From Dysidea avara (lineage: Eukaryota > Porifera > Demospongiae > Dictyoceratida > Dysideidae), in the NCBI RefSeq assembly GCF_963678975.1, contig NC_089272.1, positions 63,872,574 to 63,936,573 on the forward strand: a stretch of DNA of 64,000 nucleotides, read 5' to 3'. Of the stretch, positions 2,998-62,595 are shown piece after piece (positions within the stretch are counted from its first letter, which is position 1; each line of letters starts with the position of its first letter). The position numbers were made by a program, and so were the translations under genes. The notes under the pieces are model-generated. The model ran no database searches. It was given only the letters and a program-made list of their open reading frames with translations, and was not told the origin of the DNA.

Positions 2998-3431
2998 TAG
3001 GCTTGAGCCAATTATGCTTTGAAAATAGCCTATTATTCTTTTGAGCAGTGCTCAGAAATTCAGCCTATTATACTCAAAATTATGCATTCAAAATCAAGAT
3101 TATGCTCTAGAGTTGGCTGTTTTATTAGAGTATATCAGTCTTTCCTGACTGTTGTATTAGAGTAAGTGCTGCTCTATTAGAGTATCTCGATCTTTTTCCG
3201 TGAAGTGTAAATAATCAGCCAAGAAACAATTAAACATAATAACATTGCACATTTTCTTGATATTAAATGCAGTATTAAGGCATAGTGTGTTCATGTTTTG
3301 TTGTATTTTGGTGCATTCATTGTGCATTTAATTAAAAATCTTGAAAATTGTCCTATTTGCTAGCATAATGCTTGATGCTTTTGCTAACCTATTATGCTTG
3401 AAATTATGCCGGCTTAATTGGCACAAGCCTA
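2998..3431. mobile_element. hAT-like MITE with 8-bp TSD
   Basis: The ends are inverted repeats, TAGGCTTGAGCCAATTATGC on the left and the complement of TAGGCTTGTGCCAATTAAGC on the right. It is flanked by a perfect 8-base direct repeat ATTGTGTA (2990-2997 and 3432-3439), which fits the hAT superfamily. The 434-bp element has no coding capacity. It contains three tandem degenerate copies of the dispersed CTCTAATAGAG module at 3116-3193. A relative lies at 41657-42047. Confidence 0.85.
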
Positions 3432-3641
3432 ATTGTGTAGCGATACTGTTTAGAATCACAGAGAGAATGTGCTTCCCATTTTGCCAAAAAATACCTTCTC
3501 AACAACCTGCCAAAGAAGTTATGGGAAGACGTATTATTTAGCCGAGGCCATTCTTTATAGCATAGTTAACCTTGTGATATTTTCTTTTTCTACCTACAGC
3601 ACTTGGTTTAGCCAAGACTGAGCTTCCCCCAAAGCATGTAA

Positions 3642-3695
3642 TCATAGATAATATATACCTCCGGACACGTGTCCGGTGGTATATATTATCTATGA
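3642..3695. repeat. Short perfect-palindrome element, copy 1
   Basis: A 54-base near-perfect palindrome reads TCATAGATAATATATACCTC, then CGGACACGTGTCCG, then its complement. The same terminal sequence recurs at 4221-4270 and 20043-20091, so this is a mobile or transposon-end-derived hairpin, not a local accident. Confidence 0.75.
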
Positions 3696-4220
3696 TGTAA
3701 TCCACCATTGTAAGACTTCTAACCAAAAGTGACGCGAAATGGTCAAACTTACCAAAACAGTTATCATAACAACACCACAAGTCATTCTCGTTACAAAATA
3801 AAGTCGTTTATGGCATGGTTCGGCTATAATAGGATTAAAGTTGTTGAGGCACGAAACCAGCTTAAGGACACTGGTTCGTGTACAAAGTCTATGGGCGCGC
3901 AGCGCAGTTCCCAATCCAGGGGGGTATATTATCTATGGAAGAACAAGAAGCGAATGAATGATGAAAAGCAAACAGCATGGTGCAGTGGACAGAACATAAT
4001 GGAAACAACAGATTCGTCACTACCTCAGCTGTCTGAAATTTCTGGAGCCATGCACCTAGCACTACCGGGTCTTACAGCAGGCAGGCAGACGAAATGTAGA
4101 TCAATTTTGAAATTTTTAAACTCACTGTACATCGAAACATTCGACTTTTCGCTTCGTTTAACCAAGGTACAGCATCATTATAACAGTACTAATGCATTCC
4201 AGGTGGGTTTTTCAGGTAAA

Positions 4221-4270
4221 ACCATAGATAATATATACCTCCGGACACGGAGGTATATATTATCTATGGT
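4221..4270. repeat. Short palindrome element, copy 2
   Basis: ACCATAGATAATATATACCT followed by CCGGACACGG and the complementary arm. It has the same ends as the copies at 3642-3695 and 20043-20091, with a shortened loop. Confidence 0.75.
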
Positions 4271-4937
4271 AAAACGTATTGCAAGGCCATTTTTAAGGTG
4301 CGAAAATCCACAAAACCATATGATTTCTTACCAACCCCTCATACAGTACTATCATACAGTATGATACACTACTTATGAATAGGTGTATACCAAATTAGCC
4401 ATGGTTTGTTATAGTTTGGCTGTTTGCCCATTTGCTTTTAGGTGTATCCTTCCTGTCCCACCCTGTGGTTTAGTACAAGTTGTCCTGATTGTATTGTTCA
4501 TAATAAAACAATCAAGCAGCTCAATGACATACAGGGTATATAGCAACTAGTTCTTCATTTGTAAATGTCCCAAGCCGACAAATTGGCATATAGTGCTAGG
4601 AAGAGCTCTACAAAGTTAAATGTATTATTGTGTTTTTATACCAGTATGCATAGGATAGAATTAAAGCCACAAAAACAGCAGCCATAGCTCCATACACACA
4701 TATAACTAGTGGAGCTAGATAAAGTCGTGTGGTCCATGCTGTTGCACAACAAACATATAAATGTGCATAAGTCCCTATAATGGCAATGCAGTGCATATAC
4801 TTTATTGTTTTCTACCATTTAAAGATGTTCCCAAGTTTGTAGGGTCCCCAGGATACTAAGGCCACCCCTGACAATAGTACATGTGAAGTAGAATATTGGT
4901 ATTTCAAAAATTACTACTTGATTTATTATCACCTCAG
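4271..4937. other. Intergenic and probable intron upstream of the Kelch exon
   Basis: No supported gene. The last part ends in a plausible 3' splice site (TTTATTATCACCTCAG at about 4937), so the 3' portion is probably the intron before the Kelch exon. No upstream Kelch exon was recognised. Confidence 0.45.
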
Positions 4938-59954: not shown

Positions 59955-60144
59955 ATACCGTATAAATTAGCTTTTTTTCGTTGTAAAATAATTTTGTATG
60001 CAAAACTTGTACAAAAATTTCTTACACGAACTTTTTACACATGAAGATCGAACTACTCTAATAGAGCAGTCATTCATGGAAAATATTTTTACACGAAAGT
60101 TAGTCACAAATTTTTTTGCATGAAAATAAAGCAAATTACGGTAT
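59955..60144. mobile_element. MITE with ATACCGTAWATT-type ends
   Basis: ATACCGTATAAATTAGCTTT and AAAGCAAATTACGGTAT are inverted ends. 190 bp. It contains one CTCTAATAGAG module (60046-60072) and inverted TTTACACGAA-type blocks. Confidence 0.75.
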
Positions 60145-60766
60145 TTACCATGATCTCAAATCAGTGGCGATTCTAGACTTGACCTACTAGGGGGGCCAAG
60201 TAGGGAACTATTGTTGTATGGCTGTAATATACATTAAGCTAAAAATAACAATACCAATCCATACTGCAACTTTTCCCCAAGAGTTTTAAAGAGCTATTTT
60301 TCAGCAGGGGGAGGGGCTGCCCCTCCCTTAGAATCCCCTATGTCTCAAATAACTGGTTGATGCTCTTAGCTACTTTAGCAGAAAAAAGAAGACAAGCCTC
60401 ACAATGTGAGAGTCTGCAGATAGTACAAAGGGTATATGCACAGCCTGCAACATATGGTTGCTTCTTCTCAACAGCAGAGCTTGCTAGAAGCAGGACACTG
60501 GAAGATAGCACATGCAAGGAAGAGACATCATACAAGCACAAATCAAAATATCAGAATGTAGTCACTCTGCTCTTCCCAAGTCAAGCCCCTCAGGCCTACA
60601 TTGTTTCCAGTAACAATTTTAACCCAACACTGCAGGATTAGATATATTCTCTATGTCACATCAGTTAAATGAAGCTCATTGATTAAAGCATAATAAAAAC
60701 TGACAGCAAATAATAAAACACAGCCCAAGAGTAAAATCATAATTTGGCCCAGAGGTTGATCCATTG
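60145..60766. other. Intergenic, possible hAT-like remnant
   Basis: CAGTGGCGATTCTAGACTTG near 60163 and GGGCTGCCCCTCCCTTAGAA near 60310 look like worn hAT-type ends. No gene; the open frames at 60338-60641 have no domain. Confidence 0.35.
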
Positions 60767-61617
60767 CTAGTATTTTCTCAATTGTAACCCTAAACAACTT
60801 ATGAGCAGAAATACGATAATCCAGGACATGAGAACAACTATCCCAAGGTAGACTGGCTCATCTCCTAGTCCCCATCCTGTATAATTGAACACAAGTATGT
60901 AAACACACACATATAAATGCTATGCATATACACTAGCTACACACACACACACACACACACACACACACACACACACACACACACACACACACACACACAC
61001 ACAAACACACACACACACACACACACAAACACACACACACACACACACACACAAACACACACACACACACACACACACACCAGTATTGTAAGTGGGTCAC
61101 ACACCTCTGCAAGAAATAAGAAGTTACCAAATTATTTTTATGATCGATAAATAGGGGTGGTTCCACATAAGTCTACAGACAGCTACAGCAATCTATAAGC
61201 AGGCTCCAGACTAGATATCTGCAAGCAGCAACTCCAATAAGTGGGTATGATGCCATGCATGTTCACCCCGGCAGTAGCATACAATCCCGATGTGTGGGTA
61301 TGGAATTGTGTATTATTACAGACAGCAAAGCACATTTCTGAATGGTGGGCATAAGTTTCTTACTACATTTCCATCAATACAATAGAACTTGTTATTTATG
61401 ATCACACATGATCTCAACCTGGATACTCAATAAAGTAAATGAGACCCATGCACTTTACTTGGACAAAATTGACCCGGAACCTGACCCACTTACAGCACTG
61501 CTACACACAGACCTTTGAGCAGTATACTTCTCATTCCATCTGCAGGATAGGTCACAGGAGATAAATAACTGATAATCCTCAGCCAATCTTCAAATGCCTC
61601 AGTTGGCCACATTAGCC
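60767..61617 (-). pseudogene. ABCH transporter fragment, last two exons
   Basis: The minus-strand exon 61617-61513 (105 nt) reads GLMWPTEAFEDWLRIISYLS then PADGMRSILLKG|GTCTGT. Exon 60876-60767 (110 nt) reads GWGLGDEPVYLGIVVLMSWI then LGLQLRKY and TAG. Lengths and phases equal exons 21 and 22 of the intact gene on the other strand, and the acceptors GTTACAG and ATACAG are intact. No upstream exon is seen; repeats and a foldback follow beyond 61617. It is either a 3' fragment, or the end of a gene whose other exons lie outside the window. The intact reading frames leave the second option open. Confidence 0.82.
60942..61080. repeat. (AC)n microsatellite
   Basis: About 70 AC dinucleotides with four AA interruptions, lying inside the intron between the two ABCH fragment exons. 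Thr/His- or Val/Cys-rich open frames here are artefacts. Confidence 0.97.
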
Positions 61618-61857
61618 CTGTAACAATGTTGAAACAACAAGGTGATGTTATTATGTACAATCCTGAAGTGCAGCATGTACATTCAGTCAGTTATTAATGT
61701 AAGTTCACCACTGATAAGGTATGCAGAGTTGGACCTCACAGTCTCACAAAAAAAGATTAAAGGATTTTATGCATACCATTTACTAATGTAACTTTAGCTG
61801 TCACTATAGTTGCAAGATATATACTAATTTCAAAGGATGTAACCGTTATACCATATA
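61618..61857. other. Upstream of the ABCH fragment, nothing recognised
   Basis: No further ABCH exon can be read here on the minus strand. Confidence 0.4.
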
Positions 61858-62595
61858 TATATATATACTGAGGAGAGTATCCTACTCTCATATACCCCTG
61901 TAGAAAGGTGTATCAATATCGTGAAGTTATGATGTAATGACAAGGTGATGTGGTTTGTGCCATACAGGCAGCCATAAAAGTGTGAGAATTGTTAGAAGTT
62001 TGTCATATCTCGCAACGTTCAGGAAAGCCATATCCGTGAATGGCTGGGCAAAAATGCCTAAGCAGTTGTCTAAACCCATGAAGATGTGCCTGTAGTTCAG
62101 TGAGAAATGCTGAGAGCTCAAGCAGGGGTGTACGAAGGGGGGTTTCCAGGAGTTTCAGGAAACCCCTTTGGATTTTACACCGTACTTGAAACATTAAGAA
62201 ATTGAAACTTCATTCCAGAATTTGGAATCTGTCATGGAACAGGACACATTTTAAACTTTTATCTTAGTTAAATAATGGTTTTTCACATGACAGCAACACT
62301 TATAGCATTGTTCTGAATTATGATTTTGGTGAAAAGATCGAGATACTCTAATAAAGCAATCAGGCAATATAAACTACTCTAATATAACAGTCACTTAGCT
62401 GTAGTGGAAACCCCTTTTCAAAATCCCTGTGTACGCTCCTGCTCAAGTTAGTTCAGTTGCTAGTGATGTTGTTAGGCACATGTTTAATTGATATTAATGA
62501 CATCATTAATTATATATACAAAGAAAAACGGGCAAACTTGGAAATGTTACATCATAACTTCACGATATGAGGTAACTCTCCTCAGCATATATATT
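61858..62595. mobile_element. Foldback element (CTGAGGAGAGTA ends) with nested hAT
   Basis: ATACTGAGGAGAGTATCCTA and ATATCGTGAAGTTATGATGT (61863-61935) pair with ACATCATAACTTCACGATAT and TACTCTCCTCAGCATATATA on the right (62549-62592). A related piece, GCATCATAACTTCACTATAT with AGTAGGATACTCTCC, lies at 36645-36705 in ABCH intron 10. The nested hAT-like element occupies 62123-62440. Confidence 0.78.
62123..62440. mobile_element. hAT-like MITE (CAGGGGTGTACG ends)
   Basis: CAGGGGTGTACGAAGGGGGG with TTTCC pairs with GGAAACCCCTTTTCAAAATC and CCTGTGTACGCTCCT. It is flanked by the direct repeat GCTCAAG (62116-62122 and 62441-62447). It contains two tandem CTCTAATA-type modules (62336-62394). 318 bp, non-coding. 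Confidence 0.8.

Follow-up and report, generated by a model that had tools for sequence, protein, structure and literature searches.

A short internal sequence module common to several non-autonomous DNA-transposon families of the sponge Dysidea avara

Introduction

Why should one short motif recur inside small transposons with different ends? The question is raised by a stretch of 64,000 nucleotides from the demosponge Dysidea avara (NCBI RefSeq assembly GCF_963678975.1, contig NC_089272.1, positions 63,872,574 to 63,936,573 of the forward strand), hereafter the window, numbered from its first letter. The original prediction, made from these letters, held that a short module recurs about 17 times and lies inside unrelated transposon families. 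Several families of non-autonomous DNA transposons that differ in their ends contain the module as an integral internal component and have spread it; further units may follow 17 to 37 bp on (once 51). The motif is probably scattered through the genome because several kinds of small element with different ends carry it internally. As to its role, we tentatively favour, at a little short of an even chance, a putative internal cis-site that is akin to a tandem-repeat unit, has been retained by several lineages of miniature inverted-repeat transposable elements (MITEs) and is probably bound by a protein.

The module and its abundance

The full unit of about 29 nt consists of the prefix AAGATCGAGAT followed by the core ACTCTAATAGAGCAGTCA, and the flanks are unconserved in an alignment of the 17 first units. 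The core is matched 24 times in the window with up to three mismatches, against a mean of 0.06 in 100 shuffles (largest 1), and the 14-mers of the module (up to one mismatch) occupy the most separate places of all 14-mers scanned. Every one of the 17 places originally named holds a match, 16 of them by the three-mismatch pattern and the one near 36795 by a weaker unit (36801, 4 mismatches). Both orientations and the tandem pairs are likewise real, and triples and quadruples occur too; the second unit near 7745 is degenerate.

The genome searched comprises 550.8 Mb in 108 contigs, of which 15, each above 14 Mb, total 549.7 Mb. The search at three mismatches, which had been proposed together with the prediction, yields 160,525 cores against 273 for the control, a density of one unit per about 3.4 kb. 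Exact cores number 31,539 (reversed-pattern control, 0) and are equally numerous on both strands, and the prefix pattern AAGATCGAGATAC has 11,113 exact matches (control, 8). In 26 sampled 10-kb stretches (260 kb), placed at round-number positions away from the window, 56 units with up to three mismatches lie in 36 loci (control, 0); 11, 23, 15 and 7 of them have zero, one, two and three mismatches, respectively. Fetched genomic stretches carry L-labels; L001, a single bacterial match to the module, was taken for chance and dropped from all counts. Two module patterns have no exact match in viral contigs, a tRNA search gave none, and the Rfam search gave no family at its gathering score. GATCGAGAT may resemble an RNA polymerase III B box.

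Together with eight loci retrieved by means of the exact core, the window and the 26-stretch sample form a set of 62 clusters. Grouping of these loci by their flanks places 33 with another locus (some merely as neighbours) and leaves 29 standing alone, in what is a small sample. The CAGGGGCGGATCC and minisatellite carriers described below fall in one flank group only because they are adjacent at 50.8k and 51.3k. With one locus retained per flank group, 42 family-collapsed loci remain, and the alignment of module borders in them gives sharp edges. Upstream, positions -40 to -12 never rise above the 99% random level and -11 lies just under it; downstream, only +18 and +19 exceed it. Conservation reaches background within about two bases of the unit edges. 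With up to 4 mismatches in 11 allowed, 24 of the 42 loci have the prefix, compared with 0.8% at background positions, and the other 18 are without it. The position of the G in AAGATC (-9) is occupied by G in 10 of the 17 first units in the window.

The 62 clusters contain one unit in 27 cases, two in 27, three in six and four in two, mostly in direct orientation, with two inverted pairs. Direct units are spaced by 17, 20-21, 24-28, 31-32 or 37 bp, and once by 51 bp. Examined as an array, the module has one to four units per locus at uneven spacing, and a related 31-bp array lies in one carrier. The near-palindromic centre that had been noted, CTCTA-A-TAGAG, does exist; it is not maintained among units, because one arm varies without its partner. 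Among first units, the two G on one side are each retained in 13 of 17, whereas the C partners are kept in 16 and 15 of 17. Later units retain the G in 5 and 6 of 10 and the C in 8 and 9 of 10. A role of the palindrome as a hairpin or dimer site was rejected for this reason.

Elements that carry the module

The units of the window and the elements around them are listed below, with target-site duplication abbreviated as TSD and terminal inverted repeat as TIR.

2998-3431, minus strand: hAT-type MITE with TAGGCTTGAGCC ends, 8-bp TSD ATTGTGTA on both sides and three module units
3114-3193, minus strand: module of prefix and three units (3166, 3146, 3114)
7743-7793, minus strand: module of prefix, one unit and a degenerate second unit
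10235-10252, minus strand: single module unit; clear element borders looked for, none found
11513-11530, minus strand: single module unit; clear element borders looked for, none found
21550-21746, no strand given: pogo/Tigger-type MITE with CAGTGCTCCC ends, TIR 12/14 bases, TA duplication and two units inside
21613-21661, minus strand: two module units 31 bp apart
28737-28765, minus strand: single module with prefix; clear element borders looked for, none found
31384-31759, plus strand: hAT-type MITE with CAGGGCCGCCCA ends, TIR 11/14 bases and 8-bp TSD CCTGCAGG; internal sequence in common with 50610-50915
31508-31563, plus strand: two module units 27 bp apart
33456-33678, no strand given: probable hAT-like element, one end decayed, TSD ATACAAGT/ATACAATT (by eye)
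33538-33586, minus strand: two module units 21 bp apart
36801-36818, plus strand: weak module unit, 4 mismatches
40771-40814, minus strand: two module units, the second weak
41746-41849, plus strand: four-unit module near a TAGGC-type terminus (41972-42047)
47777-47806, minus strand: single module with prefix-like bases
50610-50915, minus strand: MITE with CAGGGGCGGATCC ends and one unit at 50821; no exact duplication in the window copy
50925-51255, plus strand: left domain of a repeat element, abutting the module
51257-51285, plus strand: module of prefix and exact core
51346-52034, plus strand: 31-bp minisatellite beside the module, its unit homologous to the family's tandem module unit
54413-54430, plus strand: single module unit
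59955-60144, plus strand: ATACCGTA MITE with long imperfect inverted arms
60044-60072, plus strand: module close to the middle of the ATACCGTA MITE
62123-62440, plus strand: hAT-like MITE with CAGGGGTGTACG ends and a 6-bp flanking repeat CTCAAG (by eye), nested in a TIR element at 61862-62591
62334-62393, plus strand: two module units 31 bp apart

Eight carriers were distinguished, and their superfamily names follow from ends and duplications alone. An 8-bp TSD with a short TIR, as expected of hAT elements, is found at 2998-3431, at 31384-31759 and at 1240-1664 of L002. The first of these (carrier 1, TSD matching 8/8) has relatives in L003, L017 and L035 that hold the module beside the same flank. 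Carrier 2, the L002 element, has TAGGGACCCGCCG ends and the TSD GCTATTAA; some of its subterminal sequence is also found in carrier 1, so that the two are probably distant relatives. Carrier 3 (31384-31759, TSD 8/8) shares internal sequence with carrier 4, the CAGGGGCGGATCC element. An A/T run with conserved flanks (50653-50735 and 31638-31706) links the 31.5k and 50.8k elements, and this piece recurs at 58434-58513; no module was found at 58.4k.

Carrier 4 was searched with the left 71 bases of the CAGGGGCGGATCC element only, a query blind to the module; 40 of 317 candidates were scored, and 20 of the 39 other matches were fetched. The module is present in 18 of these 20 copies, as one unit or as a pair spaced by about 27 bp. 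Both ends were found in 16 of the fetched copies, and 14 of these show, as read by eye, an exact 5-bp repeat at the flanks. The duplications are 5 bp and not the 8 bp expected of hAT elements, and the carrier is therefore called hAT-like only; some hAT groups have 5-bp duplications. Carrier 5 is the CAGGGGTGTACG element at 62123-62440 with its 6-bp flanking repeat. Carrier 6, at 21550-21746, combines a TA duplication with a TIR of 12/14 bases, and is called pogo-type on these features. A pattern that joins its module end to the arm start across 4 to 14 intervening positions occurs 299 times genome-wide (control, 0).

Carrier 7 was searched in the same module-blind manner with one ATACCGTA arm only; 40 of 1042 candidates were scored, and of the 39 other matches, 20, all unlisted by an earlier whole-element search, were inspected at their centres. 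The core is present in 16 of the 20 at up to three mismatches and in 18 at up to four. In the copy at 60k, taken alone, the loop of a perfect palindrome appeared to coincide with the module, a candidate arrangement that the family consensus does not show. Carrier 8 joins a left domain, the module and the 31-bp minisatellite, and is found at the module of 51257-51285, in L012, L023 and L031 and twice in L025; a further copy in L026 has a decayed module (by eye). The two copies in L025 (16-1994 and 8926-10000) are inverted and lie about 7 kb from each other, a large pair that resembles a foldback-type element, and the longest open reading frame (ORF) in L025 has 148 aa.

The ends of the TAGGC-type, CAGGGGCGGATCC, pogo and ATACCGTA elements are unrelated, and carrier 8 is counted apart as a fifth. 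Since carriers with duplications of 8 bp, 5 bp and TA all hold it, one motif occurs within MITEs of several superfamilies, and the central claim of the original prediction is supported by target-site duplications and multi-copy families. Its further claim that the carriers are independent holds in part: several end types are unrelated, but not all listed carriers are independent, because internal sequence is common to the 31.5k and 50.8k elements, and a terminus to the 41.7k locus and carrier 1 at 3.1k. These two links would also fit a single transposon family with drifted ends, in which there would be no cross-family sharing at all. Such a family is hardly credible, given that both duplications (8 bp, 5 bp, TA) and termini differ and that, in the sample, the TAGGC, CAGGGGCGGATCC, pogo, ATACCGTA and minisatellite carriers show no flank similarity outside the module.

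Position of the module and its restriction to certain families

Inside the two families sampled (CAGGGGCGGATCC and ATACCGTA), the module occupies a constant internal place, so that the suggested preferred insertion target is not supported. Could the module instead be a very small element, mobile by itself, that has inserted into transposons and elsewhere? Sharp edges and equal numbers on both strands would suit it. However, no clean empty site was seen by eye among 40 module-blind copies of these two families, which disfavours a self-moving unit; copies without a good match are rearranged, shortened or hold a partial module (by eye). Furthermore, inspection by eye showed no duplication on either side of the module itself, and the prefix is missing in 18 of the 42 family-collapsed loci. 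We consider self-mobility very unlikely.

Scans for TIR elements outside L002-L009 with strict CAGGG/TAGGG-type ends found the module in 2 of 2, and the element at 2998-3431 is a third. In a relaxed scan, 4 of 11 elements hold the module, where 3.0 false ones are expected, and one of the four is a 4-mismatch unit. A looser scan, with any ends and outside L002-L009, gives 3 of 43 elements, one of them probably spurious, and one shuffle gave 27. Elements with long TIRs are mostly without the module, and a general enrichment of the module in TIR elements is therefore not claimed. Palindromic elements with TAGTCTSGCG ends and duplications of about 9 bp, also without the module, lie at 57791-58299 of the window, L017:8960-9504 and L029:124-242.

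Relation to a minisatellite

In carrier 8, the second module unit continues towards the tandem array. None of 3000 shuffles reaches the alignment score of the 31-bp array unit with the two-unit module stretch, and the alignment with the second unit alone gives p = 0.008. The array and the tandem module of carrier 8 are related because the array unit aligns to the two-unit stretch beyond shuffles. This homology in one carrier supports a probable relation between the module and a tandem-repeat unit, and the suggestion of a satellite-like monomer stands to the extent of this one link.

The minisatellite bears on the main rival, in which the module is a functionless passenger: abundant minisatellite-like units would have been caught in new MITE families via nesting, template switching or gap repair. 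Besides the homologous 31-bp unit, this is favoured by the varying unit number (one or two) inside the CAGGGGCGGATCC family, by the longer internal stretches that the 31.5k and 50.8k elements share despite different ends, and by the near-neutral decay of recent copies described below. Random capture predicts donor sequence past the module at varying distance, whereas the 42 family-collapsed loci show sharp edges (though 18 of them are without the prefix), and the module recurs in carriers of several end types. Passive capture is credible, though we would sooner expect it to be wrong.

Divergence and a possible role of the module

Comparison of old copies of carrier 8 with one another shows 0 to 2 differences in the 29 sites of the module and a divergence of 10 to 30% in the left domain. 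Several other observations weigh against the favoured cis-site. Recent copies show the module decaying at about the rate of the sequence around it. In the CAGGGGCGGATCC family, with rows L036, L043, L044 and L055 dropped beforehand, differences amount to 13/873 in the module, 132/3983 in the rest and 13/747 in the adjoining 40 columns. The F4 pair shows 1/54 in the module versus 22/683 in the surroundings, and the F5 pair 3/22 versus 65/460. In the ATACCGTA MITE, the lower count of 20/609 in the module versus 292/3450 in the arms comes from copies ranked with a module-containing query. The pooled counts of 29/441 versus 689/4253 come from non-independent pairs under a mask that favours intact modules, and old copies drive the excess. 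Many structurally detected TIR elements in the sample are without the module, which therefore belongs to particular families and does not characterize MITEs at large. The array unit does not align significantly with the single core (p = 0.41) or the 29-nt module alone (p = 0.62). Finally, the unit spacings show no 10.5-bp helical phasing (n = 43, p about 0.46); the 11 window spacings by themselves had hinted at a phasing, which vanished with 43.

The divergence pattern fits, and does not prove, constraint on active elements combined with near-neutral decay of dead copies. The third original suggestion, a host-factor or Piwi-interacting RNA (piRNA) site, is possible. For a site selected by the host, whether regulatory or for piRNA, and maintained in many dead copies, the length and precision of the motif and its more than 160,000 units could be cited. 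Nevertheless, recent copies decay about neutrally, and one unit per 3.4 kb seems too dense for gene regulation, so that host selection appears highly improbable.

Under the favoured internal cis-site, some MITE lineages would acquire or keep the module, which would act inside the element. The most likely binder would be a sponge protein or a widely shared transposition or replication factor, and module-bearing lineages may amplify better. Selection would act on transposing elements, with dead copies decaying roughly neutrally. A more specific proposal is that a single DNA-binding protein, encoded by the host or by a transposon, helps whatever carries the 29-nt unit to move or to gain copies, that MITE families using different transposases each acquired the unit for this reason, and that the unit is thus a common currency among otherwise unrelated parasites; this is possible but rather unlikely.

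Other features of the window

Apart from the module, two perfect head-to-tail copies of an 82-bp unit lie at 26962-27126. At 13883-16120, frames resemble remains of a Ty3/gypsy polyprotein; the one ORF scanned there (14131-15150) has an RNase H match and an integrase zinc-binding domain below the cut-off. At 4887-5930, a kelch-repeat ORF in one open frame has 927 protein matches and probably belongs to a large sponge gene family; among the 120 matches listed, several come from contigs of equal length, relatives from Dysidea avara have 71 to 73% identity and the best matches 75 to 79%. Plus-strand frames at 16743-20739 contain a RING-type zinc finger, a second one below the cut-off and a death domain.

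Relation to known systems and significance

Bacterial repetitive extragenic palindromic (REP) sequences are many short dispersed units, single and clustered, that stand alone and are paired with the RAYT transposase. The sponge module resembles them in its dispersed singles and clusters; unlike REPs, it is embedded in transposons and does not keep its palindrome intact. Four core strings are absent from the open-licence literature searched, and the titles and abstract beginnings of the papers listed from that literature contain no description of MITEs sharing a module in sponges, which is weak evidence.

By analogy, the closest precedent is the amplification of E2F transcription-factor sites in Brassicaceae MITEs (Henaff 2014, cited through PMC12595863). 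Like the module, E2F sites place one short motif in MITEs of several superfamilies (hAT, PIF/Harbinger, MULE) and also in Helitrons, mostly far from genes, according to the same passages (PMC12595863). The E2F motif, however, has 10 bp and a known protein (PMC12595863), whereas the sponge unit has 18 to 29 nt, is often clustered and is known from sequence alone. In the MITE mPing, internal regions raise or lower transposition, as excerpted from PMC12595863; this is a precedent for internal MITE sequence acting in transposition, in one family tested and with no cross-superfamily motif in those excerpts. Tandem repeats of DNA transposons can seed satellites, and DINE central repeats, the Tetris foldback element and Pearl/CvA have tandem units in non-autonomous elements (portions of PMC9659126), as does the sponge carrier with the 31-bp minisatellite (an inverted pair in L025). 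In the DINE, Tetris and Pearl types, as portrayed in these portions (PMC9659126), each repeat is tied to one element, whereas the sponge unit is common to carriers with different ends.

With mPing internal sequences and MITE-spread E2F sites, the kind of phenomenon is already known; new here are the length, the clustered build and the copy number of the module. The success of MITEs is thought to depend mainly on their ends and a borrowed transposase. A long and precise internal motif in families with different ends, at more than 160,000 copies, suggests a common internal requirement, and if the module is a binding site, there would be one about every 3.4 kb through the sponge genome.

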